Positions 3-22,212 of a stretch of DNA of 22,212 nt are shown piece after piece (the first letter of the stretch is position 1; every line of letters starts with the position of its first letter). Made by a program: the position numbers and the translations under genes. Source of the DNA: a virus; IMG/VR virus record IMGVR_UViG_3300017952_000117, positions 1-22,212 of that record; one strand, written 5' to 3'. A model generated the notes under the pieces. That model was not told the DNA's origin. It saw nothing but the letters and a program-made list of their open reading frames with translations, and made no database searches.

Positions 3-3000
3 GGATATGATGTAATTAATCCACCAAATATTCATATTGGTGATACTGTTGGCACTGGCGCAACTGCATATGCAATTGTCGAAAATGGATCTTTAGATTC
101 CATTGAGATTATTTCTGGTGGTTATGATATTAGAGCCGTACCTAATGTATCAATCATTGGTGGAAATGGATCTGGAGCTACTGCTTCAGCAAGACTTAGA
201 TCAATAAGAAATACAAGAACATTCAATGCTGACATTGATGTCAATACAACGGATGATCAGATCGTATTTAATTCAAAACACCTATTTTACAATGGTGAAT
301 CGGTATTTTATGAAAAGGCAAATAACTTTGCAGCTGTTGGTGGACTGGTAGATAGTTCAATCTACTATGTCCATAAAGTAAATGACACCACAATTCAGTT
401 GATGGTAAAATATGAGGATGCAGCTGCAGGAATAAATCCAATTGACTTGACCAGTAAGTCGGCGGGTACTAACACACTTACTGCAACAACAAGTAGAAAT
501 ATTCTTGATAAAATTATCGTTGATAATGCTGGATCTGGATATTCAAATCGAAAGGTTTTAGTAGAATCTGCCATCTATCCTCCAACTGATTACACAGCTG
601 AGTCAACAATCAGAAGTGGAATCAATACCTCAAATGATTATATCTTCTTTAAGGCACATGGATTCAATCATGGTGATTTAGTAGAGTATAGAACCACAGA
701 AACTGAAATTACTGGTCTTAGTACAACACAAAATTATTATATTAATAAACTTAATGATGACAAGTTTAATCTTGTTAGTGCTGGTATTGGAACAACCGCT
801 TCGAGTATAGATTTTGATAAAAAAGACTACATCAGTTTCGGTTCAATTGGTGTTGGTACTCATATATTCAAATATCCAGATATCAACGTTGTCGTAGATA
901 CGATTTCTGGAACAGCCAGTACTGCAATTTCTCATCCAGTAGTGAGACCAATTTGCACTGGTGAGATAACACAAGTACAGTTAACATCTATTGGTTCTGG
1001 ATATGGTGTAACTGACACCTTCAATGTACATAGAAGACCAAACGTAACAATATCAAATGGTTCTGGTGCAGTTATTGATGTTGTTGTGACCGAAGGTCAA
1101 ATAACTCAGGCATTTGTTAAAATTTCTGGTAGTGGGTATGTAACACCACCAACTTTGGTGGTTAATGGTGATGGAAAATATGCAAAACTTGTAGCTAACT
1201 TATCAGATGGTCAATTAAGTAGTGTTTCCATTGTTGATTCTGGAAAAGGATATACTCAAAGTAACACTACGGTAAGTGTTGTCACCGCAGGCGTCGGTGC
1301 AAAACTGACCGCAGATGTAACCAAATGGCAAGTAGATTTTGTACAGAAATATAAAGACTCCATTAATGAGAATGATGATGGTGTCATTTTATCAAGTCAA
1401 AATGAAGATTATGGATTAAAATTTGCACACTCATATCTCTCAAGAAAATTAAGACTTTCTCTCAACGATAACATTGAGGATGATTTCAGTGAAAAGTCAA
1501 CCGTAGCTCACTCACCTATTGTTGGATGGGCATATGATGGTTGTCCGATTTATGGTCCATATGGATATAGTTCACCAACTGGAGGAGCCATTCGTAGACT
1601 TACTCCAAGTTATACACTTGCAACAAAATCCAATAGGCCTCCAACATCAATCTATTCATTAGGATTCTTTATCAATGACTGGGAATATACCGCAGATGGT
1701 GATCTTGATGAATATAATGGTAGATTCTGCAAAACACCAGAATTCCCAGATGGAGTTTATGCATATTTCTGTACCATTGAAGCCACGGATAGTTCAGATT
1801 CTCCATTTACAAATACTAGGGAGCCTTTATTCCCATATGTTTTAAATGGATATAAACATGAGGTAAATCCTTTTAACTTAAATCCTTCCTCTATACAAAA
1901 TATTTCTTTAATTAATAATGGAACACTTGTAAGAAATACTTATCCGTATAAATTCGGATTTAAGTCAAGTGCGTATGATTATTTGACAACCAATAATCTT
2001 GAAGATACTCAGATAACAGTTAGAAATATTATTAGGACTGGAATTGGGTCTGTAAGTGTAGTTGTACCAGGTATCGACTATAAAGTAAATGATCCAATTA
2101 CTTTTAACAACATTAACAGTGGTGGTCAATCAGCGTCAGCTGTTGTTAAAACTCTTGTTGGAAAAGGTGTTTCTAGTATCTCGTTTACTGAAACTGAAGT
2201 AAACAATATAACCTTTACTATTGAGAATCAAACTGTAACTGGTGTTGCAACCACTGCACACAATCTTTCTAATAATGATATTGTTATTATTAGTGGAATT
2301 GGAACAGGAGAACTCAAGTTCATTGAAGGGAAAAGAACTATCTCGGTTTCTTCTGTAACATCTAGACTCGATGTTGGTATTGGTACTAGTGGTGCAACTG
2401 GAATCACCACCACATTGGTTCTTGCAAATTCTGGATCAACTCCAAACATTTTCGTTGATGATGTTATCGGTATTGGAAGTGAAAGAATGAGAGTTCTTTC
2501 AATCAACGCAGATAAAAACGAATATAGAGTTCGTCGTGTTGCAGGCTTACTGACCTCTCATGAAGCTGGCGAACAGGTAACAATTGATCAGAGTAGATTC
2601 TCCTTCACTGTTGGTATCAAAACAAATCTAACAACACCAGCAAACAAAAAAATTGTTTTCAATCCACAAAATTCTATTGGAATTGGAACGACGGTTGTTG
2701 TTCAGAGTGTAGCTGGTGTTGGTACAACCACTGTTGTTAGAGTAAAGGCATATGATGGAACAATCTTAACCAATCACCAACTGCCTCCATCTGGATCTTC
2801 TGCGGACAACATGATTAGTATTTCTAATCATGGATTGTTATCTGGTCAAAAATTAACCTATAGTGCGGGCCCAACAGGTGTTGCATTAACAGTATCTAAT
2901 AATCTTGATCTGAGTAACCCATTTAATTTGTCGGATGGACAAACTGTCTATGCTGTTGATAAGGGTAATAACCTTCTGGGAATTACTACAACAAAGGCTG

Positions 3001-6000
3001 GAATTGGAAGTACATCAACATCTCTCTATTTTACACCAGTTCAGGAAAATACTGGAGTCGAACATTCATTTGAAACTGCCAATCTTTCATATGTTGGTAG
3101 TGTAAAACGATATGATGTTACCATGAAGACCGTTGATTCTCATGAATTGAAAACTGGTGACAACATATCCGTTCACTTACTTCCAAACACAACAAAATCA
3201 GTAGCTCTTGAGTATGATACCATTTCAAGAAAAACTACTATTGATCCAAAATATTTTGCAACATCTGCTGTTGGTGTTGGAACTTCCCTGTCTACCATAA
3301 CCATCACTGATCACAAATATTCAAGTGGTGATAAAATTCTTTATAGTTCATCAAATCCAATCACTCCTTTGACAAATAAAGGTGAGTATTATGTTCAAAG
3401 GCTAGATGATAACAGATTTAGATTATCGACAAATTATGTTGATGCAACTAAGTTTGGTGGTCAATTTATTGGAATTACTAGTTTTGGATCTGGTGTTCAT
3501 AAGGTAACTGCAATCAATCCACATGTTACGGCTAGAAGAGGTCAAACCATTGGATTTGCGGTTTCTGATGTAACGGTTCAAGACTTTAAACTCGAATTCT
3601 TTGAAGATGAAAGTTTTGAAAATAGATATGAGGGATTTGGTATCAGTACCGAAGTAACAAGATCTGGAACACCTGGAACTTCTGGTGCTGTAGTGAACTT
3701 GAAACTCTCTGAGAGTGTACCTTCTCCACTTTACTACAAATTAACGCCGCAGAGTCTGGATACTATTTCTGTCACCAAGAGAGATGCAAATCCAGATGTT
3801 AGTGTTAATAATGGATCTAAGATTATTATCTTTGATAGTGTTTACTCTGGTAGACACGGTATCACGAGTACATCTGATACTGAGCTTAGATATCAAGTAA
3901 CTGAAGAACCAGAATCTGCAAGTTACACATCATCATCTGGAATTACTACATTTAGTTATAGTACAGATTCTACTAATGCTCTTGGTGGAATTAACGAAAT
4001 CAAAGTTAATTTTGGTGGTATCAATTACCTGAGAAATCCTGGAATTACTACAATTAGAACCACATCAGGCAAAAATGCGATTCTAAGACTGTATGATGAT
4101 CAGGTTGGAAGACCAGGTGCAAGAGAAGTTGTCAATCTGGGATTTGAATATCCATCTGATAATACTATCAAACCTTCTGTTGATCTACCAACGGTAGTTA
4201 CTATTACTAATAACTATGTTCTTAACAAAGTTGGTATCGTAACCGCTGGTAGAAATTACATTATTGCTCCAGATTTAATTATTCCAGATAGACCAGATGT
4301 AACACTGGTTGCTAACTTAGAAGGAACTTCTATTGGATCTGTAGAAGTTACAAATGTTGGTCGTGGATTTAACGAGGTTCCAAATCCACCAAGGATTGTT
4401 GCGGTTAGAAACACAAATGGTGTTGGTATTGTTTCTGCAAGTTCTAATGGGGACACCAATTTCTTGACCATTACACAACCTACTAATGGTTGGAGGGCTG
4501 ATGGATCAGACTTCCCATTTGATGTGGGAGATAAAATCTTTGTTGAAGGCATCGGACTAACAACGTCATTAACATCAACTGGTGGTTACAATTCTGAGGA
4601 TTATGATTATAACTTCTTTGAGATTTTGACTAGAAATCCATCGAGTGCTCAGATTACTTATTCTATCGCTGGAATCGGAACCACTGGTGGAACTTTCAAT
4701 GCAGATGATAGTGCTGGTAGAGTTATTAAATCAACAGATCTTCCCACATTCTCGGCTGAACTAAATTCAGAGTCATTCTTCTCTGGTGAAAGAGTAACTT
4801 ATGGTTCTGATGGAATTGGTTTTGTTCTTGATAATCAAGGTTATGATCCAGTAACGAATACTGTTAGACTAAGATCCTTAACCGCATCTATCAATATTGG
4901 AGACGTTGTTAAAGGTTTCTTATCTGGATCAGAAGGCACAGTTGCCAATGTAGAAACACCTAATAAATTCTTCAATGTTGGCTTTGGTGCGGAAAGGACG
5001 AAAGGTTGGCAGAGAGACACTGGTAAATTAAATGACGACTTCCAGAAAATCGAAGATAATGACTACTATCAAAACTTCTCATACTCAATTAAGAGTCAAG
5101 TTCAAGAGAAAGAATGGAAAGATGCTGTAAACAGTATTGTTCATCCAACTGGATATAAAAATTTCTCCGACCTTGTTGTTATTTCTTCAACCACTGCTGG
5201 ATTTGGTAGAAGCTCAAATCTTGATCTTGGTCAACCAACAAGTGATACGGTTCTTTCTGTTAATATTGATAACTTGAAATCTTTCTATACTAGAGATGAT
5301 TTTGATATTGGTGGAGAGGAAACTCTTACCAATGGTCTTTCTAAGTTTGTGACCCTACAAAATAAGAGAATTTCGGCCTTTATTAATGTGGACTCTAACC
5401 GAGTTGATATTATTGATGATATTTCCGATCAGTTTACTGGTATTGGAACAACAACTAGTACAAACATTGTTGGATTGACAACCTTTAAACTTACTAGAAC
5501 GAACAGATCGGTTGTTCTCTTCAACAAAGTATTTGATGGTTCAAGTTCAAGTGTAGTTTCTGTTGGTTCTTCTATTATCAGAATCAACAACCATGACTTC
5601 CAGACTGGTGAAAGAATCAAGTATGATCCTGGTGCAGCCTATGGCAACAATAGAGTTGGTATTGTAACAACCAATAAAGTTCTTGGTGGTGTTTCCACTT
5701 CGTTCATGCCTGCAGAAGTTTATGTTATCAAGATTGACAATAACAGATTCTCTCTGGCTGGATTGAACACTGCCGTTACAAATAATGAACCCTTCTTCTT
5801 CCGTGCAGTTGGATCTGGTACAAGTCATTCATTCGATGTTTTAAACCCAGACAAGAGAGTTGTTATTGACGTTGATGGTATGGTTCAGTCTCCACTCTTT
5901 AAGAGAGGCATTAATGTAACTCTTGCTGAAGCTGTTGGAGTTGGTTCTACAACTATTAAGGTCACTGGAATTACATCAATTACTGCAAATGATTTGTTTA

Positions 6001-9000
6001 ATATTGACAATGAGATTATGCAGGTGGGTGTTGTTGGATTTGGTTCAACAAACGTACTAACGGTTGATCGTGGATTACTTGGAAGTGTTGCAGCTGCACA
6101 CACAGTTGGTGCTGCAGTAACTGTACGTGGTGGTAACTTCCATATTGTTAAGGATGTGATTCACTTTGTTACTGCTCCATATGGACCAACTGGAGTTAGT
6201 ACATTACAACCAGGTATTAGCACATCTTCTACTTTTGGTGGTCGTGTATTCAATAGAAAGAATCCAAATACCAACTTTATTTTTGATGACATTTCCGACC
6301 AATTCACTGGTATTGGTAAGACATTTACACTTCTTCAGGATGATCAGGACGTTACTGGTATTGTTACTACAATATCTGGTCCTGGTGGTAGTAATGAAGT
6401 TGTAAACAATGGATTTATCCTTATTAACAACGTTGTTCAGTCTCCATTGGTTGATTACACCATGGACGAAAGAACTGGATCTGGAATTGGTGCTTCTATC
6501 TTCTTCACTGGAACGACCAGAACTAATCTTCCTAGGGGTGGAATTGTTGGGGACGTTTCTGTTGGTTTTGGTTCTGGATACCAGAATTTGGTTGCAGCTG
6601 CCGCAACCGCAGTTGTAAACGGTTCGGGTGCAATTGAGTCGGTTGTTGTTACTGGTGGTGGATCGGGATACAGATCTTCTGATTCTGTTTCTATTCAGAT
6701 TTTCAATCCTCTTGGAATCGGATCAACGGCAGTTCTTTCAGCAACTGTCGGAACTGCAGGAACAATTACTGGTATTTCTACAGTAAGTGGTGGATCTGGA
6801 TATGCATCCACAACTCCTCCAGTAATCGTTGTTGGTATTCCGACAGCATACAATAATGTATCATTTACTGGTGGACAAGGAAATGGATTTAAGGCTACTG
6901 TTGTAGTTGGTACGGGCGGAAGCATCATTGATTTCAATATCACTGATAGAGGAATTGGATATTATAATGGTGATGTTTTAACTGCCGCTGGAATCCCAAC
7001 AGATCCAAATGTTGGTGCGGCATTTAGTGCATTTACATTCACTGTTAATAGTAGAATCGATGACAAGTTCTCTGGATTTAGTTTCGGTCAGATTCTTCCA
7101 CTTGATAGTTTTGCTGATGAATTTGATGGAAGTCAAACTGTATTCACCTTAACAAAGACTACAGTTACTACTGAGATCATTAACATTGATACTGAAGACA
7201 CCTCTCTTGATGTTGGTAATAATTTGATCATCTTCATTAATGATATTTTACAGAGACCAGGTGCAAACTATACTTTCACTGGAGGAACCCAAGTTCAGTT
7301 TACCGAAGCTCCAAAAGCTGGAAGTAAGTGTCAGGTCTTGTTCTACAGAGGATCTAATGCAGACGTAACTGATGGAACTCCTTTCCCAACGGTTAAGATT
7401 GGAGATAGACTGACCTTACAGAGAAAAAATAATATTGTTGGTCAACTTGATAGAAGGGTAACTGCGATTACTGGTGTTAAAAAGGCAGAAACTAATTTGT
7501 ATGCTGGTGTTGGTATTAACTCTAACGCCGCATTTACAAGGTCTGTTTCTTGGCAAAAACAAACAAGTGATTTGATTCTGAACAATCAAGCTCTTCCAAA
7601 ATCAAGAACCTCACTGATTGGCAAAATTCATCCAACCACTAGAATTATTCAGAATGTTGGTGTTTCTTCAGATGCAATTTTTGTAGAGAACGCATTCCCA
7701 CTGTTTAGTGCTTATGATAATAGATCTGATAGAAACAGTGTTCTTGGTGGAAGTATCAAGATCATGAAAGAGAATAATGTTGACGCGGCTGATGCCACTG
7801 CAACAGTGTCTCTTGGGGGAACAATTTCTGGATTTACTATCACGGATCCTGGTGCTGGATATGATACATTACCAACAATTTCCTTTGCATCTACTATTCC
7901 ACAAACTAAAGAAGTTGGTAAAGATTGGACTGCGGTAGATTCAAATACCGACATTGAATATCAAGATGTTGATTATGCAGATAGTGGAATATTTGTTGCT
8001 GTTGGAAGTACATCTGGAATTAACACTTCTAAGGATGGAGTTACATGGAACTCTTCGACATCAAGTGGATTTGGGACCTACTTTAGTGTTGTTGGTTTAA
8101 CAACAAATATTATTGCTGTTGGACTTGGAGGTACAATCGCGGTTAGCACAGATCGTGGTGGTAGTTACACGAATTCCAGAATTTATACAAGAACTCTGAA
8201 TGGATTCCTTTACACATACAATGATGACAATGTTTCTATTGATTTGAATTCAGTTATTGCTGGAACGACTAAAGCTGTTGCAGTTGGTGCTGGTGGAACC
8301 ATTCTGTTCTCTGAGGATGGGCCTCTTGGTCTTGGAACTGCTTTTGTCATTGCTAATAAGTATTCAATACAAAATCTTCGTGGTGTTGGAAACAACGCAA
8401 ATACTTTCATTGCCGTCGGTGACAATGGAGAACTTCTGAGATCTAATGATGGTGAAATTTGGTCTGGTGTTACAACCACCTCAATCACAACGAGATTGAA
8501 TGATGTGCATCATGGTGATAATGCATGGATTGCTGTTGGAGCAGCAGGAACAATTATTCGATCAACTGATGATGGTCTGAATTGGTCAGTTGTTTCCTCT
8601 GGAGCCACTTTCAGTCTGAATTCTGTCAGTTATGACAACAACGTTTGGGTTGCAGTTGGACAGACTGGAAATGTGATGAACTCCTTTAATGGAACTCATT
8701 GGTATCCAAGATCCGTTGGCGTTACTACAGATTTCAATGGACTTGCATTTGGTGATAATAAACTGGTAACAGTTGGACTGTCTTCGAATATTCTGTACAG
8801 TGAGTTTGCAACCGTATCTGCAGCTGCAACCGCTACGGTTTCTGCCGCAGGAACAATCACATCAATTAATTTAACAGAACGTGGTTTTGGTTATGATCCA
8901 AATACATCTGTAGAGGTTCTTATTTCTACAGAACCAGTCACAATTGAGATAATTACCAGTGCAGATTGTGACGGCGACTACGGTGTAGTTGTTGGTCTTG

Positions 9001-9494
9001 GAACAAGTTCAACTGGTATTGGAACTGATAGTCCAATGGTCAAATTTGAATTGCAGTCAGATCCGTTCTTAGATCAAGCTGCTTTTGGTAATATTACCAA
9101 GAGTGGTATTTCTCAAGGTTATTACTTCGTTATTCACGATTCTGTTGTTGGCAATGGACTGACATCAATTAATGTTGATGCAAGTGTTATTGGAGTTGGA
9201 ACAACATTCATTGATAATGTATACAGAGCTGATGAAATTATTACGTCTACTTCTGGTATCGTTACTGTATGTTCCAACGTTCAGTCTCTTGCTGGACTGG
9301 GAACAACCAGCCTATCTCCTAAGATTGGTTACTATAGTTGGGGTAGATTCTATTCATTCAATAGAGATGTTGTAAACCCACAATCTTTCAGTATCAATAA
9401 TCAAAATGGATATGCTGGACTTACTACAGCGCCAGTTGTTTATCGTGTTAGTGCGGTAACAGAAAATTATAATGACTTAAGTGAGACTTCATAA
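3..9494 (+). CDS. Giant modular virion structural protein (baseplate/tail associated), 5' truncated by window
   Basis: The frame is open from the first bases of the window to TAA at 9492-9494, giving at least 3163 residues; the real start lies upstream. A TTG/ATG at 399/402 is internal, because the protein reads through it with the same repeat style on both sides. Domains seen: HGL-type beta modules (about 235-400, 620-790, 2800-3050, 3290-3510, 5560-5840); GSGY repeats (3-200, 965-1320, 2040-2185, 4210-4410, 6550-7050, 7785-7895, 8805-8940); a YHYH-like domain (1509-1860); a YYQNFSYSIKS...HPTGYKNF module (5050-5185); three F.G..T.FTLT modules (from 5415, 6285, 7110), the latter two with an ILINNVVQSP- or IFINDILQRP-type sequence; an RG/H cell-like module (5930-6130); and a seven-blade propeller (7914-8811). 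It ends with GYYSWGRFYSF followed by a conserved-looking tail. Similar giant proteins are known in marine T4-like phages. Its position before gene 8 matches T4 gene 7, but I see no gp7 homology. Virion location is inferred from context. Confidence 0.85.
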   Translation, partial: GYDVINPPNIHIGDTVGTGATAYAIVENGSLDSIEIISGGYDIRAVPNVSIIGGNGSGATASARLRSIRNTRTFNADIDVNTTDDQIVFNSKHLFYNGESVFYEKANNFAAVGGLVDSSIYYVHKVNDTTIQLMVKYEDAAAGINPIDLTSKSAGTNTLTATTSRNILDKIIVDNAGSGYSNRKVLVESAIYPPTDYTAESTIRSGINTSNDYIFFKAHGFNHGDLVEYRTTETEITGLSTTQNYYINKLNDDKFNLVSAGIGTTASSIDFDKKDYISFGSIGVGTHIFKYPDINVVVDTISGTASTAISHPVVRPICTGEITQVQLTSIGSGYGVTDTFNVHRRPNVTISNGSGAVIDVVVTEGQITQAFVKISGSGYVTPPTLVVNGDGKYAKLVANLSDGQLSSVSIVDSGKGYTQSNTTVSVVTAGVGAKLTADVTKWQVDFVQKYKDSINENDDGVILSSQNEDYGLKFAHSYLSRKLRLSLNDNIEDDFSEKSTVAHSPIVGWAYDGCPIYGPYGYSSPTGGAIRRLTPSYTLATKSNRPPTSIYSLGFFINDWEYTADGDLDEYNGRFCKTPEFPDGVYAYFCTIEATDSSDSPFTNTREPLFPYVLNGYKHEVNPFNLNPSSIQNISLINNGTLVRNTYPYKFGFKSSAYDYLTTNNLEDTQITVRNIIRTGIGSVSVVVPGIDYKVNDPITFNNINSGGQSASAVVKTLVGKGVSSISFTETEVNNITFTIENQTVTGVATTAHNLSNNDIVIISGIGTGELKFIEGKRTISVSSVTSRLDVGIGTSGATGITTTLVLANSGSTPNIFVDDVIGIGSERMRVLSINADKNEYRVRRVAGLLTSHEAGEQVTIDQSRFSFTVGIKTNLTTPANKKIVFNPQNSIGIGTTVVVQSVAGVGTTTVVRVKAYDGTILTNHQLPPSGSSADNMISISNHGLLSGQKLTYSAGPTGVALTVSNNLDLSNPFNLSDGQTVYAVDKGNNLLGITTTKAGIGSTSTSLYFTPVQENTGVEHSFETANLSYVGSVKRYDVTMKTVDSHELKTGDNISVHLLPNTTKSVALEYDTISRKTTIDPKYFATSAVGVGTSLSTITITDHKYSSGDKILYSSSNPITPLTNKGEYYVQRLDDNRFRLSTNYVDATKFGGQFIGITSFGSGVHKVTAINPHVTARRGQTIGFAVSDVTVQDFKLEFFEDESFENRYEGFGISTEVTRSGTPGTSGAVVNLKLSESVPSPLYYKLTPQSLDTISVTKRDANPDVSVNNGSKIIIFDSVYSGRHGITSTSDTELRYQVTEEPESASYTSSSGITTFSYSTDSTNALGGINEIKVNFGGINYLRNPGITTIRTTSGKNAILRLYDDQVGRPGAREVVNLGFEYPSDNTIKPSVDLPTVVTITNNYVLNKVGIVTAGRNYIIAPDLIIPDRPDVTLVANLEGTSIGSVEVTNVGRGFNEVPNPPRIVAVRNTNGVGIVSASSNGDTNFLTITQPTNGWRADGSDFPFDVGDKIFVEGIGLTTSLTSTGGYNSEDYDYNFFEILTRNPSSAQITYSIAGIGTTGGTFNADDSAGRVIKSTDLPTFSAELNSESFFSGERVTYGSDGIGFVLDNQGYDPVTNTVRLRSLTASINIGDVVKGFLSGSEGTVANVETPNKFFNVGFGAERTKGWQRDTGKLNDDFQKIEDNDYYQNFSYSIKSQVQEKEWKDAVNSIVHPTGYKNFSDLVVISSTTAGFGRSSNLDLGQPTSDTVLSVNIDNLKSFYTRDDFDIGGEETLTNGLSKFVTLQNKRISAFINVDSNRVDIIDDISDQFTGIGTTTSTNIVGLTTFKLTRTNRSVVLFNKVFDGSSSSVVSVGSSIIRINNHDFQTGERIKYDPGAAYGNNRVGIVTTNKVLGGVSTSFMPAEVYVIKIDNNRFSLAGLNTAVTNNEPFFFRAVGSGTSHSFDVLNPDKRVVIDVDGMVQSPLFKRGINVTLAEAVGVGSTTIKVTGITSITANDLFNIDNEIMQVGVVGFGSTNVLTVDRGLLGSVAAAHTVGAAVTVRGGNFHIVKDVIHFVTAPYGPTGVSTLQPGISTSSTFGGRVFNRKNPNTNFIFDDISDQFTGIGKTFTLLQDDQDVTGIVTTISGPGGSNEVVNNGFILINNVVQSPLVDYTMDERTGSGIGASIFFTGTTRTNLPRGGIVGDVSVGFGSGYQNLVAAAATAVVNGSGAIESVVVTGGGSGYRSSDSVSIQIFNPLGIGSTAVLSATVGTAGTITGISTVSGGSGYASTTPPVIVVGIPTAYNNVSFTGGQGNGFKATVVVGTGGSIIDFNITDRGIGYYNGDVLTAAGIPTDPNVGAAFSAFTFTVNSRIDDKFSGFSFGQILPLDSFADEFDGSQTVFTLTKTTVTTEIINIDTEDTSLDVGNNLIIFINDILQRPGANYTFTGGTQVQFTEAPKAGSKCQVLFYRGSNADVTDGTPFPTVKIGDRLTLQRKNNIVGQLDRRVTAITGVKKAETNLYAGVGINSNAAFTRSVSWQKQTSDLILNNQALPKSRTSLIGKIHPTTRIIQNVGVSSDAIFVENAFPLFSAYDNRSDRNSVLGGSIKIMKENNVDAADATATVSLGGTISGFTITDPGAGYDTLPTISFASTIPQTKEVGKDWTAVDSNTDIEYQDVDYADSGIFVAVGSTSGINTSKDGVTWNSSTSSGFGTYFSVVGLTTNIIAVGLGGTIAVSTDRGGSYTNSRIYTRTLNGFLYTYNDDNVSIDLNSVIAGTTKAVAVGAGGTILFSEDGPLGLGTAFVIANKYSIQNLRGVGNNANTFIAVGDNGELLRSNDGEIWSGVTTTSITTRLNDVHHGDNAWIAVGAAGTIIRSTDDGLNWSVVSSGATFSLNSVSYDNNVWVAVGQTGNVMNSFNGTHWYPRSVGVTTDFNGLAFGDNKLVTVGLSSNILYSEFATVSAAATATVSAAGTITSINLTERGFGYDPNTSVEVLISTEPVTIEIITSADCDGDYGVVVGLGTSSTGIGTDSPMVKFELQSDPFLDQAAFGNITKSGISQGYYFVIHDSVVGNGLTSINVDASVIGVGTTFIDNVYRADEIITSTSGIVTVCSNVQSLAGLGTTSLSPKIGYYSWGRFYSFNRDVVNPQSFSINNQNGYAGLTTAPVVYRVSAVTENYNDLSETS
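965..1320 (+). repeat. GSGY-type beta repeats, three tandem units
   Basis: Three consecutive protein units share the pattern G-x-(I/L)-x-x-V-x-(I/V), then G(S/K)GY, then a stretch ending in a hydrophobic strand and a Gly-rich turn. Landmarks are IGSGYGV (about 990), ISGSGYVTPP (about 1125) and DSGKGYTQS (about 1236). Each unit is about 35-45 residues. The same unit recurs elsewhere in this protein, in the gp8-like protein and in the DUF4815-type protein. It is probably a short beta-strand building block; no enzymatic motif is seen. Confidence 0.7.
1509..1860 (+). other. Degenerate YHYH domain within the giant structural protein
   Basis: The translation contains GWAYDGCPIYGPYGY (about 1521-1565), then LDEYNGRFCKTPEFPDGVYAY (1703-1766), then PYVLNGYK (about 1834-1857). 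This order (DG.PIYGPYGY, LDE.NG, TPE.PDG.Y.Y, PY..G) is the signature of the YHYH protein family. The family-naming YHYH tetrad is here YAYF (1758-1769), so both histidines are absent. YHYH domains are known as inserts in marine phage structural proteins. The function is unknown; loss of the histidines argues against any metal or catalytic role that depends on them and favours a structural role. Assignment rests on motif recognition only. Confidence 0.75.
5415..6317 (+). repeat. Two copies of the DDISDQFTGIG module start
   Basis: The 11-residue sequence DDISDQFTGIG occurs at 5415-5447 and again at 6285-6317. The two 33-nt stretches differ at 5 positions, all of which leave the protein unchanged. 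Each copy begins a module of the F.G.(G).T.F.LT type seen in phage fibres and tail proteins; a third, divergent copy (ADEFDGSQTVFTLT) starts near 7113 and leads to IFINDILQRPGANYTF. The region between the two copies carries a module with GVGSTTIKV, an IDNEIMQVG segment and DRGLLGSVAAAHTVGAAV (about 5935-6125), a pattern common in phage structural proteins. Confidence 0.7.
6550..7050 (+). repeat. GSGY-type beta repeats, four tandem units
   Basis: Landmarks are GFGSGYQN (about 6570), GGGSGYRSSD (about 6655), SGGSGYASTTPP (about 6788) and DRGIGYYNGD (about 6945). Between them run Ala/Val-rich strands such as AAAATAVVNGSGAIESVVV. It is the densest array of this unit in the window. The units are divergent in DNA, so the array is not a recent tandem duplication. 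It is probably an elongated beta structure; the function is unknown. Confidence 0.7.
7914..8811 (+). other. Seven-blade Asp-box (BNR/Ycf48-like) beta-propeller domain
   Basis: Seven units of the form (I/V)AVG..G.I..S.DG..W are visible, starting near 7991, 8109, 8271, 8406, 8526, 8646 and 8763. Six of the seven are 39-45 residues apart and one (2 to 3) about 54. Examples are FVAVGSTSGINTSKDGVTW, WIAVGAAGTIIRSTDDGLNW and WVAVGQTGNVMNSFNGTHW. Blades 1, 2, 4 and 5 keep Asp-box-like S.D.G.(T/S)(W/Y) turns; blades 3, 6 and 7 are degraded. The domain opens with KDWTAV and closes with NILYSEF, as expected if the first and last strands together close the ring. It is flanked on both sides by GSGY-type units. 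Propellers of this fold often bind glycans or protein partners; here a receptor or structural docking role is an inference. Confidence 0.8.
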
Positions 9495-17100: not shown

Positions 17101-18667
17101 ATGTACCCTTGGTGAAACTGGAACAGGAACAAGATTTAACGTTGGTATCATTTCCGCAACCAACAGCATCATTCTTGACAGAGTTCAGGGTGAATTTACA
17201 ACGTCATCCGAACTGATGACTATTAACGCCGTTGGTGTTGCGTCTACCTTACCAGGATCGCAACCTTCAGCCATTAATAACACTGCATCATACAAAGATG
17301 GTTTACATGTCAAGGTAAATCATAGAAACCATGGTATGCATGGTAGAAACAATAGAGTAACGATTGCGGGTGTTGTTGGTGTTAACACGACAACTACTGT
17401 CTCATCTCAGTATTCGAATACATCAACCGCAGATCTGGAACTTGGATCGGTATCGGTATTCTCCAACTTTGAAAACGTTGGTGTTTCCACAACCAATCCA
17501 GGATATGTGAAAATTAACAATGAAATTATTGCATACACTGGAACTGACGCATCTGCAACACCACAAAAACTCACTGGAATCACCAGAGCCATTGATAATA
17601 CTGTTGCAGAAACTCATAGAGTTGGTGATATTGTTCAAAAGTATGAAGCTTCTGGAATCTCTCTCAGAAGAATCAATACAACTCACCAGTTCTCAAGTGT
17701 TAATAATTCTAATGAGATTACTCTTGATAGTTACTATCTTAAGGTCGATGTTACTTCAAGTGGTATTGGAACTGTGAGAGATGGAACCAACAGTTTCCCT
17801 GCACTGAAAATCAATGACACTGAGATCTCTGGAGGATACAAGGCTAAGGCAACACAAAACGTTCAGTTCGAAGCCTTGACTCCACTTGTAGAGTTCTTAA
17901 CACCTAGAGATACTGGATTCTCTGGAAGAGTTAGAACAGTTTCTGCAACAAGTGTTAGTGGATCCGAAAGTTCTTTCCAAGATAAAGGATTTGAAAGTGT
18001 TACCCTCAATGGTGTTAATTATTTCACAGATCCTAGAATGTTTGCTTCGAAGATCAACGAACAAAATCAACTGAGTGCGTTACCTGGTAACAAGTCATTC
18101 ACAATGGAGTTGGTTCTTTCTTCACTTGATCAAAATGTTTCTCCTGTGATTGATGTTGATAGACTTGCGGTCATTACAACTACAAATAGACTTGATCAAA
18201 GAATCACGAATTATCCAGATGATAATAGAGTGAATGAAAGATTCAGTGATCCAAATGCTGCAGTTTATATCAGTAAGAGAGTTAATCTGGAAAATCCAGC
18301 AACATTCTTACAAGTCAAGTTTGCTGCATATCGTCACATTTCTAGTGATATTAGAGTTCTCTACAGACTCTTTAGAACTGATACTTTTGATAAGGAAACT
18401 CCATATGAACTCTTCCCTGGTTATGACAACATGACCGATACAACAGGGGATGGATTTGGAGATCAGGTAATTGATCCAAAACTGAACAATGGTAAACCTG
18501 ATAGATTTGTTCCTGCCTCAAGATTTGATGAAGAGTTCAGAGATTATCAGTTTACAGCAAGTAGTCTCCCAGAGTTTAATGGGTTTGAAATCAAAGTTAT
18601 CATGACAGGTACAAATCAAGCTTACGTTCCTAAAGTTAGAGATTTTAGAGCCATCGCATTTGCATAA
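11126..18667 (+). CDS. Giant DUF4815-type baseplate/tail structural protein (2513 aa)
   Basis: The N-terminus has the DUF4815-type hallmarks: YFDDFNEEKNFNRVLFKP, then PVQARELTTLQSILQNQIE and FFKEGAMVIPGQIAYD. Further landmarks are YVRGFDIEK (about 12200-12230), YTMFDISRLETRLKNVEFY (about 14450), LDRFKSGFFVDNF, a PYMRSRNIEFVVNRIKPRTRF segment (about 15379), a module from SFEVVEDNGVFVSSCDIFF (about 16195) to PYMGSLFKSQNG (about 16560), one GSGY unit near 17070, a His-rich HRNHGMHGRNN (about 17325) and an EETH-like ITRAIDNTVAETHRVGD module (about 17578). The C-terminus contains DTTGDGFGD, a Ca-binding-like acidic loop, and ends KVRDFRAIAFA. Such proteins are standard virion components of marine T4-like phages, sitting where T4 has genes 9-10. 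The exact place in the baseplate is unknown. It starts 4 nt after the gene 8 stop and shares a TAATG overlap with the next gene. Confidence 0.85.
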   Translation: MPQETNLNVSPYFDDFNEEKNFNRVLFKPASPVQARELTTLQSILQNQIERFGQHFFKEGAMVIPGQIAYDPLYYAVELNDTFLGVPLSEYLDKLVGKVIRGESSGVEATVVNYVLATNSDRGNNTLYVKYSKSGGDFATETFQDGENLVTASDIEYGLSRISANNPFGSCIPNAATSIGSAASIQDGVYFIRGFFVRVTADTVILDQYGDRPNYRVGLLISENVVTAYDDDSLFDNAKGFTNFAAPGADRFQVKTTLIKKSLTEFNDENFVELMRLENGQLQKFVKKTDYNIIRDELARRTYDESGDYYVKPFQVTVQESLNNRQGNGGIYLPSQKTSEGGAHSSDLMLYAVSPGKAYVRGFDIEKLNTSYIDVPKPRDTKTVDSSSFVFDGVNYIKINNVYGSPVVGFGTTATVSLRSERIGTTGSDAAGIEIGNAKVYDYKLEASAYSNAATKYDLYLYDLATFTTVTVNTDTTQTTPALIEGARSGARGFLKSDVSGSKSLTLTSTSGQFIVDEPIIINGITQSTVVTSIREYSFDDIKSVYQTVGINTFNADTSLSNRFSLAPAGTNFTVGTAGIVTAPGNRFSVGIKTGDIVTYNRTGFADPTFNRVSSVAADGSTLTLVSLGASVPGVCDGGLTTSEIQSSDFSLIRPRVVNGNRSSLISPLPTPFISNVDLSSAEIQIRRQFTLNVATNRATVTVSDSDQFFQPFDEERYNLVYSDGTVEYLNSQKVTFNSTFKTITLAGLSKASDTNAILVTTLKKTNVRSQDKTLSRCTKLVVSRSKYDYSGAASTNFNDGLTYNQVYGTRVQDREVSLNVPDALRVHAVFESSTTAAPTLPNITLVNRSTDLTDTIQGELIVGAVSGAVARVVTSAASNVDIVYQNDLRFSVSESVTFQSSGITGEVSAVVIGDKNIVKNFTFDNGQRPEYYDYSRIIRKEGSQEPKKQLAIVYDNYVIDSGSNGDMGTVNTYSPDTYETDLPTFGGRPNSDFIDIRPRVKNYDSSTDTDSPFEYDFRDFSSSGSYVPNILVGDESLTLGYSYYMGRIDKIFLSKDGFFELKQGASSDFPVAPDTPGGSFTVATIYNRPYIHNASQETAVVLAKHKRYTMFDISRLETRLKNVEFYTQLSLLETDTANLNIKDAVTGLDRFKSGFFVDNFRSHGSHSIVHPNFRASIDKASGHLRPLHYTHGIDLLLGSEQVIGIGTTANPNADLTQVSDLQSNALRRTGDVVTLDYSEAEFIKQRFATRTENVNPFAVINWVGVANLNPASDVWVDEKRLDVNNITLEGGYQAFMDSLSVDPNTGFAPIDWGSWEEEWSSIDISTTELSRDLQSTEVSQVGGWRRGWTGGGQQIASEHSALAQRTRNVTMQDNFLVTNEETITIDRGLTRSGIQIQVNERIDTQSLGTRLISQETIPYMRSRNIEFVVNRIKPRTRFYIFFENQDVTQYATPKLLEIDMVQGVFQVGETVKGTFADNGLDGGSLPEITFRVAQQNHKYGSYDSPTIIYDVNPYADAVGLSSVYSATSSVLNIDTASLQAEVLGNFTGYAAKNMRLVGQTSGAEATVSDFRLISDEKGALIGSLFIPNSSLPTVPQFRTGVKTFRCTSSPVNSLSPVDNPSTAEVSFRAEGVLDTVQDDVIGIRNPEIQRETLSDSTVTNQSIIRTVQTAAFEERTVAQNQWFDPLAESFEVVEDNGVFVSSCDIFFQTKDDNIPVTLQIRTMQTGLPTQTVIGFGEVIYEPSQVNVSEDGSVATRFVFPSPVYLAGKREYALVLLSASNNYRVFISRMGEEDISTANLAESERIIVSQQPYMGSLFKSQNGSTWDASQFEDLKFTLNKCNFVPGPGTLKLYNPELGVGKFEFPRLRPDPIEYYSHEIKVGFGSTVATRDFNVGSKFTQVGNTNAEGNLVKSLGAIKINTTSTEAGGITTNTVGTGLTPSASNFTFTGIALTSITGNGSGAVANIQVSSGSIGVVTVTSGGSGYAVGDVLGCTLGETGTGTRFNVGIISATNSIILDRVQGEFTTSSELMTINAVGVASTLPGSQPSAINNTASYKDGLHVKVNHRNHGMHGRNNRVTIAGVVGVNTTTTVSSQYSNTSTADLELGSVSVFSNFENVGVSTTNPGYVKINNEIIAYTGTDASATPQKLTGITRAIDNTVAETHRVGDIVQKYEASGISLRRINTTHQFSSVNNSNEITLDSYYLKVDVTSSGIGTVRDGTNSFPALKINDTEISGGYKAKATQNVQFEALTPLVEFLTPRDTGFSGRVRTVSATSVSGSESSFQDKGFESVTLNGVNYFTDPRMFASKINEQNQLSALPGNKSFTMELVLSSLDQNVSPVIDVDRLAVITTTNRLDQRITNYPDDNRVNERFSDPNAAVYISKRVNLENPATFLQVKFAAYRHISSDIRVLYRLFRTDTFDKETPYELFPGYDNMTDTTGDGFGDQVIDPKLNNGKPDRFVPASRFDEEFRDYQFTASSLPEFNGFEIKVIMTGTNQAYVPKVRDFRAIAFA

Positions 18668-19259: not shown

Positions 19260-19487
19260 ATGCCAGACATTAAGATCCGAGTTGGTCAAAAATCTGCAAC
19301 CAAGGTTGCAACAACATCCACTGGAACTACTGGTGGAACTCTAGCTGGTTTGACTGATACTGACACTGCTGCAGTATCAAATGGTTCTGTTTTGGTTTAT
19401 GATTCAAATACATCTGCATGGGTTGCAACTAATACGTTAACCCCAGGAAACACAAGAAACTTAGACATTAACGGAGGCACATTCTAA
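19260..19487 (+). CDS. Small fibre-associated virion protein (75 aa, GGTF C-terminus)
   Basis: The protein starts MPDIKIRVGQKSATKV. Its middle carries LAGLTDTDTAAVSNGSVLVY followed by DSNTSAWVAT, the pattern (GLTD.d....dGsvLvYds....wvat) common at fibre and tail tips. It ends LDINGGTF. The next gene, the fibre, also ends in a related motif (DCGTF), so the two proteins share a terminal element. The ATG has a strong Shine-Dalgarno, and the stop overlaps the fibre ATG (TAATG). A role as a fibre partner or short fibre segment is an inference. Confidence 0.75.
   Translation: MPDIKIRVGQKSATKVATTSTGTTGGTLAGLTDTDTAAVSNGSVLVYDSNTSAWVATNTLTPGNTRNLDINGGTF
19472..19477 (+). promoter_or_regulatory. Shine-Dalgarno (CGGAGG) for the tail fibre gene, inside the preceding gene
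   Basis: GGAGG lies 9 nt before the fibre ATG at 19487 and is contained in the codons for NGG of the INGGTF terminus of the preceding protein. It supports 19487 as the start and coupled translation through TAATG. Confidence 0.75.
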
Positions 19488-21526
19488 TGGCCAGTAAGAT
19501 TAGGATCTTAAGATCTACTGGTGCGACTGCTCCAGGGTCTCTAGAGTATGGCGAACTTGCAATCACCATAGAACAGGGGACGGCTGGTACTTCTGCTAAT
19601 AAAGCTGGTCGTTTGTTTATCGGTAATGCCTCTAACAATCCTGTAGAACTGGGTGGAGAATATACATATAAACTTTTAGATCATGTCCATGGTGAACTTA
19701 CCAATTCATCTGCTGCAATTGTTGATAGTAACGGTGAAATTGATGGATGGAGTGTTGCTGGTATTCTTACCGCAACCAGAACAAATATTACCGACTTTGT
19801 AACTTCAAATCTGAATGTTACTGGTGTATCTACTTTTGCTCAAGGTCTTAACCTGAATGGCAATGTCACTATCGGTGACTCACATACAGATACCCTCACT
19901 GTAAATGCACGGGCTGGATTTACCACAGACGTAACACTAGATGAAGATCTTCTAGTAACTGGTATTTCTACGTTTACTGGTGCTATTGATGCAAATGGTG
20001 GATTGGATGTTTCTGGTGGAGAAACAATACTTTCTTCCGCGACTGTTAGTGATCTGACTTCAGGAAGAGTTGTTCTTGCTGGTACTTCTGGTGCCCTTGA
20101 AGACAGTGGAAACTTTACTTTCGATGGTTCAACTTTGACGGTAACTGGAGACCAAACTGTCTCTGGGACCATCGATGTTCAGACTGATGCATATGTCGGT
20201 GCTGGTCTTTCTGTTGTTGGTGTTTCTACATTTACTGATGCTATTGATGCAAACAATGGATTGAATGTATCTGGAGCCGAATCGGTACTTTCATCTGCCA
20301 CTGTCTCAGACTTGACTGAGAATCGCATTGTCATTGTTGGCACTTCTGGACAACTGGAAGATGATGCAAATCTCACCTTTGATGGAAGTACACTGGTAGT
20401 TGGTGCAACTCTTGATGGAACGATCATTGATGCAACTACTCTCCGTGCCCCAGTTGGTGTTGTTACTACTCTTACCACACACGACGTAGTTGGTGCAGCT
20501 GCAACATTTACTGAAGCATTTACCCTTGGTTCTGGTGGTACTAAGTATAGTTTCCCAGTTGCTGATGGTTCTGTAGATCAAATTCTGGTTACAAATGGCT
20601 CTGGAAGTTTATCTTTCTCGGATGTTCCATCCAGCATGGTTATTAGTGCTGGTTATGCATCTACAGATAGAGTAAATCTTCTCACAGATACTTTTACTGT
20701 TGCTGCAACTAATAATGAAACTAGAACAACATTAACAGACAATACAATTACAGTTGGTCTTGCCACTGATATCGTTGTTGGTGGTGGTGTTACAATCACC
20801 AATGATCTTCTTGTTCTTGGTAATTTAACTGTTGAAGGAACTGAAACGATTATCAACGTTGATTTCCTTGACGTTCAGGATAAACACATTGGTGTTGCAT
20901 CTACATCTACGGCTTCTAATATAACCGCTGATGGCGGTGGTTTCTTTGTTCATGGTGGTAGTGACGGAGACAAGACTATCTTCTGGAGTTTAACTCAAAG
21001 TGGTTTTGAGGTAAACCAAGATTGGTTACCAAATGCCGATGGATCATTTGATCTTGGTAATACAAACAGAGAATGGCAAAATCTGTTTGTTGATGGTCTT
21101 GCAGAACTAGATGATGTCAATGTTTCTGCAGCCGCAACTATCGCAACGTTAAATGTAACTGGCACTTCAACTCTTGCAACAGTTGATATCAATGCAGGTA
21201 ACATTGATAATACGATTATTGGTGCAGCAACAACTGCAGCTGGTACATTTACAACCCTGACCGCTGGTACAATTGTAACTGGTGGAAGATTGGATGCGGG
21301 ACAGACAACATTCGATACTTTAAGAGTAACGGGTGTTTCAACTCTTGCATCATTAATTCTTTCTTCTGGAACTAATACTAACGGTGCGGCATACTTTGAT
21401 GCCAATGGTCAGTTGCAATCAACCGCAACTCCTTCCGCTGGTATTCAAACCTCTAACTTTATTTTAACAACGAACGCCTCTGGCGTTCCTTCGTGGACGG
21501 ACACTATTGATTGTGGAACATTCTAA
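19487..21526 (+). CDS. Tail fibre protein with hyaline-like repeats (679 aa)
   Basis: The N-terminus (MASKIRILRSTGATAPGSL, then EYGELAITIEQG and GRLFIGNASNNPVEL) matches the virion-proximal start of many phage fibres, with an LEYGELA...LFIGN pattern. Residues about 110-320 carry two hyaline-like repeats (VTGVSTF..., LSSATVSDLT, FDGSTL). The central part has TVEGTETIINVDFLDVQDKHIGV (residues about 449-471, from 20831) and ADGGGFFVHGG. A typical DLGNTNREWQNLFVDGLA segment follows (about 21050-21103), then IDNTIIGAATTAAGTFTTLTA and TFDTLRVTGVSTLASL. These repeats usually form trimeric beta-rich shafts. The end (WTDTIDCGTF) is short, and I see no S74 intramolecular chaperone or receptor-binding head, so the tip may be another protein. 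Host-recognition role inferred. Confidence 0.85.
   Translation: MASKIRILRSTGATAPGSLEYGELAITIEQGTAGTSANKAGRLFIGNASNNPVELGGEYTYKLLDHVHGELTNSSAAIVDSNGEIDGWSVAGILTATRTNITDFVTSNLNVTGVSTFAQGLNLNGNVTIGDSHTDTLTVNARAGFTTDVTLDEDLLVTGISTFTGAIDANGGLDVSGGETILSSATVSDLTSGRVVLAGTSGALEDSGNFTFDGSTLTVTGDQTVSGTIDVQTDAYVGAGLSVVGVSTFTDAIDANNGLNVSGAESVLSSATVSDLTENRIVIVGTSGQLEDDANLTFDGSTLVVGATLDGTIIDATTLRAPVGVVTTLTTHDVVGAAATFTEAFTLGSGGTKYSFPVADGSVDQILVTNGSGSLSFSDVPSSMVISAGYASTDRVNLLTDTFTVAATNNETRTTLTDNTITVGLATDIVVGGGVTITNDLLVLGNLTVEGTETIINVDFLDVQDKHIGVASTSTASNITADGGGFFVHGGSDGDKTIFWSLTQSGFEVNQDWLPNADGSFDLGNTNREWQNLFVDGLAELDDVNVSAAATIATLNVTGTSTLATVDINAGNIDNTIIGAATTAAGTFTTLTAGTIVTGGRLDAGQTTFDTLRVTGVSTLASLILSSGTNTNGAAYFDANGQLQSTATPSAGIQTSNFILTTNASGVPSWTDTIDCGTF
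19949..20431 (+). repeat. Tandem duplication within the tail fibre, two units of about 76 aa
   Basis: Unit 1 is 19949-20176 and unit 2 is 20207-20431, separated by a 30-nt linker. By eye, 46 of the first 65 aligned residues are identical, with blocks STFT, AIDAN, LSSATVSDLT, GTSG, LED and TFDGSTL fully conserved. The DNA has diverged clearly, so this is not a fresh copy. The unit is a shaft repeat. Confidence 0.8.
21472..21488 (+). other. 7-bp perfect hairpin near the 3' end of the fibre gene
   Basis: GAACGCC (21472-21478) and GGCGTTC (21482-21488) are exact reverse complements with a 3-nt loop. It is GC-rich compared with the neighbourhood and sits about 36 nt before the fibre stop codon. 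There is no T-run after it, so it is at most an RNA-stability or processing hairpin. Confidence 0.5.
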
Positions 21527-21722
21527 TCTTGATGCAAACGTTATTGTCGAACTTGCACTAAACAAAGTAGTTGAACTACAAAAACAATTACTCCTGACTG
21601 AGGCTAAGTTTATTAGTCTTCGTCAGGAGTATGACAAACTAAAAATTGAAAATGATGTTTTGAAAAATAAATCTGAAGAGTGGGAATCTTCTTCCACCAC
21701 CAGAAAAACGACCACTAAATAG
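21507..21722 (+). CDS. Small coiled-coil protein with non-AUG start overlapping the fibre gene
   Basis: Up to 71 residues. There is no ATG in frame, so the start must be TTG 21507 or GTG 21513. GGACGG at 21495-21500 lies 6 nt before TTG and 12 nt before GTG, which slightly favours TTG. The start overlaps the fibre gene by 14-20 nt. The sequence is a single helix-like stretch with heptads (VIVELALNKVVELQKQLLL, then LRQEYDKLKIENDVLK) and a Ser/Thr/Lys-rich tail ending TTRKTTTK. Its amphipathic pattern is unlike a chance frame, and its codon use resembles the neighbours. I do not recognise a named family; a scaffold or oligomerisation role is speculative. Confidence 0.7.
   Translation: MIVEHSNLDANVIVELALNKVVELQKQLLLTEAKFISLRQEYDKLKIENDVLKNKSEEWESSSTTRKTTTK
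21589..21631 (+). other. Long near-perfect hairpin inside the small coiled-coil gene
   Basis: TACTCCTGAC (21589-21598) pairs perfectly with GTCAGGAGTA (21622-21631). After one mismatch (21599/21621) the stem continues for eight more pairs, two of them G-U (21600-21607 with 21613-21620), closing a 5-nt loop GTTTA. That makes 18 pairs in 43 nt. No T-run follows. It is the strongest RNA structure I noticed in the window; whether it functions is unknown. Confidence 0.65.
21714..21721 (+). promoter_or_regulatory. Weaker late promoter-like box (ACTAAATA) before the neck gene
   Basis: ACTAAATA differs from NATAAATA at one position and overlaps the TAG stop of the preceding gene. It lies 22 nt before the ATG at 21744, spaced much like the box before gene 8. 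An AGGAAG (21724-21729) is 14 nt from the ATG, which is long for a ribosome binding site. Confidence 0.4.
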
Positions 21723-21743: not shown

Positions 21744-22212
21744 ATGGCAAAACCTAGCAGTAGACAAGAACTTATTGATTATTGCCTAAGACAGCTGGGT
21801 GAGCCTGTTTTGGAAATCAACGTCGATGACGATCAGATAGAAGATCTCGTCGATGATGCAATTCAGTATTTCCAAGAAAGACACTTTGATGGTGTTGAGA
21901 GAATGTATCTCAAACATCAAATTAGTCAGGCTGATATAGACTCAGCAAGAAGTAACACAGTAGCTTCTACTGGTATTAAATCTGATGTGTTTAACCCAGA
22001 GAGTTCTGGTGTTGTAAACATCAGTGCAAGTAATATCACAATTCCAAATCACGGACTTATCACTGGGTCTCCTGTTTATTATAGTTTTGGTGCAGGTTCT
22101 ACTTCTATTGGAATTGCAACAACTGCTCTTGCTGGAGTAGGAACGACAAGTTTCCTTGGCATTTCAACGGATAGTGTTCTTCTTTATGCAATTGCAGATA
22201 ACAGAAATCAAA
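21744..22212 (+). CDS. 13: Neck protein, T4 gp13-like (N-terminal part, cut by window end)
   Basis: The first 156 residues are visible. The start, MAKPSSRQELIDYCLRQLG then EPVLEINVDDDQIEDLVDDA and IQYFQERHFDGVERMYLKHQI, is the recognised N-terminus of gp13-type neck proteins of T4-like phages. In T4, gp13 and gp14 form the neck that seals the filled head and joins it to the tail. The gene order (fibre genes, then 13) agrees with T4, where 13 follows wac and the fibre genes. From about residue 87 the protein turns into a beta module (NITIPNHGLITGSPVYY, then GIATTALAGVGTTSF) of the type found in the giant upstream protein, which I do not expect in gp13. The frame is open at the end of the window. 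Confidence 0.8.
   Translation, partial: MAKPSSRQELIDYCLRQLGEPVLEINVDDDQIEDLVDDAIQYFQERHFDGVERMYLKHQISQADIDSARSNTVASTGIKSDVFNPESSGVVNISASNITIPNHGLITGSPVYYSFGAGSTSIGIATTALAGVGTTSFLGISTDSVLLYAIADNRNQ
22004..22212 (+). other. HGL-type beta module inside the gp13-like protein
   Basis: The motif order (I)..(N)HGL.(S/T)G..V.Y, GxGTT linker, LLYAIADNRN parallels the giant protein's NHGLLSGQKLTY...TVYAVDKGNN (about 2815-2965) and the YYVQRLDDNRF type (about 3388-3417). It begins right after the helical gp13 start, where the family core would be expected to continue, so it looks like an insertion. The far end lies outside the window. Confidence 0.6.

Follow-up and report, generated by a model that had tools for sequence, protein, structure and literature searches.

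A baseplate-type beta-module inserted in the neck protein gp13 of Kanaloavirus cyanophages and their uncultured kin

The neck protein gp13 of phage T4 is a dodecamer, and its domain I is a helix bundle, as described in a preprint (PMC12270204). According to the same source, domain II (residues 52-192) is a swing domain that forms a peripheral ring. This domain turns upward through some 90 degrees, and residues 90-157, its anchor region, contact the portal and gp23. Domain III (residues 190-239) binds fibritin, and the neck fibres then interact with the long tail fibres in the up state. A fibre contact of another kind is seen in cyanophage A-1(L). In that phage, fibres lie folded back against the sheath, with the shoulder of the fibre anchored in part by an insertion domain of a baseplate wedge protein, gp31B (PMC10966104). 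Like the gp13 described below, gp31B is a virion ring protein with an inserted domain, which in gp31B contributes to fibre anchoring. However, gp31B belongs to the baseplate and not to the neck, and the two are likened by description. In the tailspike of phage K1F, a small endosialidase beta barrel is one of three polysialic-acid binding sites (PMC12632334, a preprint).

The DNA analysed here is the complete IMG/VR record IMGVR_UViG_3300017952_000117. The window, i.e., the whole stretch of 22,212 bp, spans all of this record, and nothing of it lies beyond the window's end. Judged by its relatives, the source of the record is a T4-like cyanophage. The nearest named relatives by gp13 are Synechococcus phages S-8S53, S-8S56, S-8S55, and S-CAM9, with 70.7-72.6% identity over all 156 residues. 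S-8S53, S-8S56, and S-CAM9 belong to the genus Kanaloavirus of the family Kyanoviridae, and the cultured members of the lineage discussed below infect marine cyanobacteria. The genes listed in the record all lie on the plus strand (Table 1).

Table 1. Genes and module copies of the window, with the matches that identify them
Feature	Position	Strand	Basis or remark
gp7, giant baseplate wedge subunit (P0002, 3163 aa)	3..9494	+	phrog_2885, E 0, 2505.6 bits; 5' end missing
gp7 module copy 1, residues 73-159	219..479	+	iterated profile, E 9.4e-14
gp7 module copy 2, residues 205-289	615..869	+	iterated profile, E 1.1e-12
gp7 module copy 3, residues 932-1025	2796..3077	+	iterated profile, E 6.7e-16
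gp7 module copy 4, residues 1084-1169	3252..3509	+	iterated profile, E 1.3e-19
gp7 module copy 5, residues 1842-1945, window copy closest to the gp13 insert	5526..5837	+	iterated profile, E 4.7e-28; gp13-only profile, 2.8e-10
gp8	9517-11121	+	phrog_438
2,513-aa protein with DUF4815	11126-18667	+	phrog_358
Three small ORFs between the 2,513-aa DUF4815 protein and gp13, listed before the 679-aa ORF		+	
679-aa fibre-like ORF, 5' of gp13, at the place of T4 wac (fibritin)	19487..21526	+	phrog_15769 (unknown function), residues 1-102, 3.4e-39; T4 gene order
gp13, head-tail adaptor Ad2, neck protein (P0001), 5' part of gene	21744..22212	+	phrog_211; ORF 21744-22211 open at record end
Inserted beta-module, start (gp13 residues 77-156)	21972..22212	+	phrog_2885 over residues 77-139, 1.7e-5

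The window holds 76 core residues of gp13, after which the chain enters a beta-module. Residues 2-78 match phrog_211, the head-tail adaptor Ad2, at 1.8e-15, and residues 77-139 match phrog_2885, a baseplate wedge subunit. Against a module profile built from close relatives of the window gp13 itself, residues 77-156 score 5.3e-45. An earlier sequence-only reading of this DNA had proposed that a gp13 N-terminus switches to other sequence, and these matches bear it out, although the insert starts at about 21972 and not at 22004. It had also likened the insert to the giant protein upstream. This likeness holds, with the best gp7 copy lying 16 kb upstream and the end of the gp7 gene 12.5 kb upstream. 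As for the motifs HGL and GxGTT, by which the module had been recognised, the former stands as HG(L/F)xxG. The latter is compositional and also occurs in P0003 and P0005, in both of which the module was not found, which makes HG(L/F)xxG the more reliable mark. The likeness needs profiles to become significant: when the window gp13 was compared with the remainder of the window by tblastn, the best E was 0.15. The best nucleotide match elsewhere in the window covers 29 bases at 83% (E 0.004) at 2672-2700, outside the module copies.

Because the record ends within the insert, the continuation of gp13 was followed in relatives. The gp13 of contig L002 is 99% identical to that of the window over residues 1-156, with one difference in 156 residues. 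It is complete at 375 aa and carries a module of about 114 residues (77-190) followed by gp13 core. The C-terminal core is present in the complete relatives L002-L013, and in 72 of the 73 insert-bearing ORFs overall; the exception is L014, whose contig stretch stops inside the insert. Where complete, insert-bearing gp13 is 372-385 aa long. The sequence-only reading had named a gp13 core that fails to resume as a refuting outcome, but in L002 and the other relatives that reach past the insert the core does resume.

Two contig searches define how widely the insert occurs. In the first, the insert was present in 13 of the best 80 of at least 597 relatives (L002-L014), and 12 of these were complete at 372-375 aa. 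Among the other 67 of those 80, 62 were complete at 264-290 aa and five were cut short, and no ORF in their loci matched the module profile below 1e-3. The second search used the insert alignment as query, and 59 of the best 80 of 125 loci carried module and gp13 core within a single ORF, the other 21 being other large ORFs. The searches overlap in 12 contigs, giving at least 60 distinct insert-bearing contigs, a lower bound counted from contig names that includes the IMG/VR entry of S-CAM9. The 183 loci together contained 113 module-bearing ORFs, 73 with a gp13 core and 40 that are parts of giant proteins. When 50,697 phage records were searched with the module by tblastn, 31 matched, seven of them in gp13 of S-CAM9 and S-8S53/55/56. 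The remaining 24 comprised 16 annotated as gp7 or baseplate wedge, three as virion structural protein, two as hypothetical or predicted protein, two unannotated records, and phage DSL-LC01.

Ordinary cyanophage gp13 (P-SSM2, S-SRM01, S-CAM4, and others) shares the same core, and 21 contig rows are 51-65% identical to L002 (alignment A1). In contrast, it is only 266-282 aa long in seven isolates, and these full-length proteins matched the module profile at E 0.25 at best. Comparison with other cyanophage gp13 found the inserted stretch absent from the ordinary proteins examined, so that the other refuting outcome named by the sequence-only reading, its presence in ordinary gp13, did not occur either. 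On the 103-kb contig L164, a giant module-bearing ORF lies directly upstream of an ordinary gp13.

The module was gained once in gp13, in Kanaloavirus and its uncultured kin. In a tree of 96 unique gp13 cores from which the insert had been removed, the 37 insert-bearing cores fell on one side of a single branch (100/99) with no ordinary row among them, and therefore one gain explains them. With shuffled labels, 29.8 changes would be expected. The insert replaces a loop that varies among ordinary gp13s, too. Loop length is bimodal, with 12-38 aa in 61 ordinary rows versus 117-130 aa in 67 insert-bearing rows, and no loss is seen within the clade (37/37 unique cores bear the insert). The set consists of 128 of 143 core-bearing ORFs, 96 of them unique. 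The 15 dropped ORFs lacked an anchor (four), an end (five), or a start (three) or were too short (three), and seven of them, the window included, bear the insert. As ordinary rows, the tree includes the gp13s closest to the query, and a further gain among distant gp13s may exist; none was found in the tblastn search of the 50,697 phage records.

The same module is repeated in giant cyanophage gp7. A profile of 15 gp13 inserts found a full-length copy at residues 1842-1942 of the window gp7 (i-E 2.8e-10) plus weaker pieces, and reversed window proteins gave 0.01 at best with the same profile. After iteration, five copies were found in the window gp7 (E 1.1e-12 to 4.7e-28), and the best value on reversed sequences was 1.0 in the window-gp7 search set and 0.043 for S-CAM9. 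Because loci entered the iteration by their likeness to the module, later-round E-values are biased in its favour; the first-round value is independent of this. Conversely, 14 of the 15 gp13 inserts match phrog_2885, with 8.2e-17 as the best value. In the whole genome of S-CAM9 (1,132 six-frame ORFs of at least 50 aa, E up to 0.1), only gp7 with six copies and gp13 with one copy contain the module. S-SM2 and P-TIM68 also have six copies each in gp7, and the five of the window come from a gp7 whose 5' end is missing. Unlike gp13, gp7 is a very long protein of another virion part in which the module is repeated and is not a single insertion. Together with the core tree, the profile searches bear out the reading that gp13 carries a module of the giant baseplate protein, here an insertion present in one clade and homologous to the gp7 repeats, and we regard this anatomy and common ancestry as practically certain.

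Some further features of these giant proteins were observed. The window gp7 contains a YHYH domain (PF14240, 2.1e-25) at residues 500-594 (1500-1784). Its repeats of the type AVGxxGTI-S-DG-W at 7900-8900 resemble by eye what we take to be BNR or Ycf48-like blades; no such blades were matched by Pfam in the window gp7 at E 0.01. In S-CAM9 (L197), the annotation of baseplate wedge initiator gp7 is attached to a 192-base ORF at 2814-3005, whereas size and place identify the 3,884-aa protein encoded at 52887-64541 as gp7. In Actinomycetia phage DSL-LC01, the 2,853-aa protein encoded at 4204-12765 of L186 matches the module nine times (E up to 0.01), in part incompletely. This protein is annotated as ALK tyrosine kinase receptor, a name that looks wrong.

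The sequence-only reading held that the module moves between virion parts. Its presence in both gp7 and gp13 is compatible with such a move, whichever its direction. In a tree of 105 modules, the gp13 copies form one group (98/93) whose sister group does not resolve; the tree has few columns, long branches, and unsettled bootstrap values. Ten loci were omitted as near copies, and the gp13 rows were limited to 14 loci. The 91 other rows were all labelled gp7, and this label is loose, because DSL-LC01 is not annotated as gp7 and, among the five giant proteins tested against phrog_2885, L182 had no match and L166 matched over a short part only (L162 is a phrog_2885 protein). By pairwise score, the L002 insert pairs best with the final gp7 copy of S-SM2 (41 identities over 104 columns), and the inserts of L082 and L010 score best with a gp7 copy of L162. 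Copy 5 of the window gp7 has 40 identities with the L002 insert over 112 alignment columns. By eye, a segment of the GIATT-AGVGTT type is common to the gp13 copies and this last gp7 copy, and it is missing from most other gp7 copies. The last gp7 position is the best candidate donor. Since nucleotide likeness between the gp13 insert and the window gp7 modules is absent, the event appears old. A recent copy from the window's own gp7 was rejected, as no nucleotide match falls in the module copies and the closest proteins are copies of other phages. It is also possible, if somewhat less likely than not, that the gp13 and gp7 copies were taken separately from a wider pool of phage beta-modules and not from one another. 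The single gp13 group with its unresolved sister, the good matches in the giant DSL-LC01 protein, and the missing nucleotide likeness all fit such a pool. However, 16 of the 24 tblastn records outside Kanaloavirus gp13 are annotated as gp7 or baseplate wedge, and L002 reaches its highest score with the last S-SM2 gp7 copy.

The position of the insert can be read against T4 gp13 (PDB 9mkb, 9lu4), which belongs to the same protein family: a profile of 33 gp13s matches it at 1.6e-22. The T4 protein (309 aa) likewise has accessory parts, including domain III. However, it lacks the module, and its accessory domain sits elsewhere in the chain, the insert site falling near T4 residue 72. A full-length gp13 model was poor (pLDDT 62.9, pTM 0.39). 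With this low-confidence model, Foldseek gave six matches below 0.001, all T4 neck entries, at 3.7e-7 to 2.5e-6 and with TM-scores of 0.22-0.33. Aligned with T4 gp13, the cyanophage profile holds firmly up to residue 72 and from residue 233 onwards, with weak alignment in between. The insert starts just past residue 72, and the alignment is weak directly after it; from this placement the insert would belong to the swing domain. In the sequence alignment the site is separate from both the anchor region (90-157) and domain III (190-239), so the insert does not take the position of the fibritin-binding domain. Between the firm parts, a stretch that includes domain III, the cyanophage core has 131 residues versus 160 in T4. 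Ordinary cyanophage gp13 may therefore lack domain III, which is a weak indication from length. The insert is probably exposed. The placement of the module on the neck surface, as had been supposed, is backed by its alignment to the T4 peripheral-ring region, which makes it an inference from sequence.

AlphaFold2, run with an alignment of 81 modules, predicted a small beta-domain consisting mostly of strands with one short helix (pLDDT 91.5, pTM 0.85). First among its viral fold neighbours is an unnamed protein; others are the baseplate wedge initiators of Bellamy (TM 0.81) and S-SRM01 (TM 0.72), as well as a number of fibre proteins. Since annotated tail fibres and other structural proteins are among them, the module also occurs outside gp7 and gp13 in phages at large. 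Foldseek found no solved structure below 0.001 (best E 0.21). In a second fold comparison, ubiquitin-activating enzymes ranked at the top (Z 7.5, UBA6 residues 212-292, which we take to be the FCCH domain). Endosialidases followed over 75-78 residues (3ju4 residues 424-507, Z 6.3; 4hiz_C, Z 6.9). All values were below 8, which may mean only a common arrangement.

The commonest weak Pfam match of the module is PF12195, the endosialidase beta barrel. It was found in 12 of 81 modules at E up to 1 (best 5.3e-5), in two of 15 gp13 inserts (best 0.014), and in four DSL-LC01 copies (8.5e-4 to 0.21). The curated cut-off of 35 bits was not reached, 19.7 bits being the best among eight proteins scored, and the L002 insert and three window gp7 copies had no PF12195 match. 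The sequence match falls on K1F residues 438-461, the same barrel as the fold match, with an hhalign probability of 16%. The E1 FCCH domain (PF16190) was matched once among the 81 modules, at 0.028. Each of the sequence and fold evidence alone would be dismissed; since the endosialidase and E1 families recur in both kinds of search, a shared barrel type is plausible. The barrel of K1F gp17 and phi92 may thus be a similar small barrel with an HGLxxGDxVxF-like motif at the same place, but it belongs to a tailspike enzyme and the match lies below the family cut-off. We take these as weak, converging hints. A sequence-profile search of the PDB found nothing at E 1 with the gp13 inserts, and with the 81 modules the best match was the phi92 endosialidase at 0.11. 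None of the 23 Pfam families matched by the 81 modules is of Ig type by name (a PKD-like model matched once, at 0.024), and no Ig-like chain is recognisable by title among the 50 fold matches listed, which leaves room for an Ig-like fold beyond that list. NCBIfam gave scattered weak matches only, and neither it nor Pfam assigned the 81 modules a family name above cut-off.

Selection acts on the insert. Among 53 distinct coding sequences, the median dN/dS is 0.26 in the insert versus 0.048 in the core, computed from the 366 of 1,378 pairs that were usable (1,012 were dropped for dS outside 0.1-1.5 or saturation). In addition, 26 insert positions are invariant in the 53 sequences. The insert is thus functional protein under looser selection than the core. 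It is kept by selection yet evolves faster than the core, as would be expected for an exposed domain.

Taken as a whole, the explanation we consider best, with about an even chance of being right, is an outward-facing binding domain that was gained once and is homologous to the gp7 modules, with fibre docking as its first-choice role. Twelve copies would stand around the neck and face outward, because their loop belongs to the swing domain, which builds the neck's outer ring in T4. The module would be a binding domain whose copies in the baseplate (gp7) and the neck (gp13) hold fibres. For example, fibres folded back along the tail would be held at the neck by the gp13 module, which would thus play the part that in T4 falls to a separate domain, the fibritin-binding domain III. 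Fibre docking is favoured because the module is otherwise a baseplate domain in S-CAM9, because T4 gp13 bears a fibre-binding part and the T4 neck fibres interact with the long tail fibres in the up state, and because the A-1(L) fibres fold back with a wedge insertion domain helping to anchor them. As the main role of the module it is nevertheless a tentative choice, made by analogy. A bolder form, which we hold to be rather unlikely, makes the module a fibre clip at both ends of the tail, with the gp13 graft as a second dock at the neck for the same fibres that gp7 holds at the baseplate. If this were true, the fibre-retraction role of T4 fibritin would have been re-invented by moving a baseplate domain to the neck.

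The chief rival to the fibre dock, and the second choice of role, is weak binding of cell-surface sugar. The barrel would bind host or environmental glycans weakly and many times, like the accessory barrels of tailspikes, in adhesion or decoration. The scattered PF12195 matches in modules, gp13 inserts, and DSL-LC01 copies speak for this, as does the fall of fold and sequence matches on the same endosialidase barrel, which in K1F is a polysialic-acid site. However, the PF12195 scores stay far below the cut-off with a low hhalign probability, several copies lack the match altogether, the fold list is headed by ubiquitin-activating enzymes at Z below 8, and a shared fold shows no function. In A-1(L), a sugar-binding module at the tip of the neck fibre did not bind the host (PMC10966104), and this cautions against a quick adhesion reading. 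We therefore consider sugar binding a somewhat doubtful candidate. The insert could also contact the capsid and not face out, since the T4 swing domain flips up against the portal and capsid. As part of the same swing domain, it would then pack on the portal or the major capsid protein after the flip and stiffen the head-neck joint. Its dN/dS, about 5x that of the core, is ill-suited to a close-fitting interface with a conserved capsid, and such a clamp seems improbable. Domain gain in phage virion proteins is a common and known kind of event, which lends some credit to a neutral spacer, meaning an unremarkable domain, picked up through recombination, that folds properly and is harmless. The lack of any loss in 37 unique cores, the insert length of 117-130 aa in 67 rows, its dN/dS, and its 26 invariant positions argue against it, leaving it equally improbable. 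The outward-facing binding domain, with fibres as its first-choice ligand, remains our preferred reading.

As far as the titles and abstract beginnings of the literature show, the presence of the module in gp13 and its sharing with gp7 are new. We found no published description of a gp7-type module in gp13 in this coverage, outside which most subscription journals lie. At the exit of the packed head, gp13 forms a connector ring that is conserved, and its tolerance of a whole domain marks a site that is safe for additions. Sharing with gp7 alone in one complete genome narrows phage modularity to one event in a named genus with cultured members. The role of the module, be it fibre dock, adhesion, or filler, thereby becomes testable by one structure. 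The beta-module repeated in giant cyanophage baseplate proteins, moreover, is one to which Pfam and NCBIfam gave no name above cut-off in the 81 modules scanned.

Among the insert-bearing loci inspected, kin of the 679-aa ORF precede gp13 wherever the flank is long enough; in seven listed loci with short flanks, a small ORF is all that is seen. Its N-terminal 110 residues match 25 records, seven of which are Kanaloavirus. An obligate partnership with the insert was rejected, because the N-terminus also occurs alongside ordinary gp13: P-SSM2 and DSL-LC03 carry it, and their gp13s of 281 and 267 aa lack the module. The 679-aa ORF is a possible partner of the module. Roughly the final 50-70 residues are found again in the ORF preceding gp13 at several ordinary loci, with middle and length varying. 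The small ORF at 21507-21722, between the 679-aa ORF and gp13, has an apparent coiled coil by eye, and Pfam matched nothing in it at E 0.01. L108, L110, L123, and L004 have small ORFs of 84-87 residues in the corresponding position.

The same module in gp14 was considered and rejected, as a scan of 19 loci gave one domain match below 0.1 (L051, 0.037), in an ordinary locus. Instead, gp14 carries another repeat type. This second type, GxGYT-PPTV, seems to be shared by gp14 (phrog_460) with gp7 (2e-20) and gp8 (2.4e-5), and the neck and baseplate may share this second module more widely. By eye, GxGYT-PPTV is seen in gp14 of L016, an ordinary locus, and in gp14 of L006 and L082.
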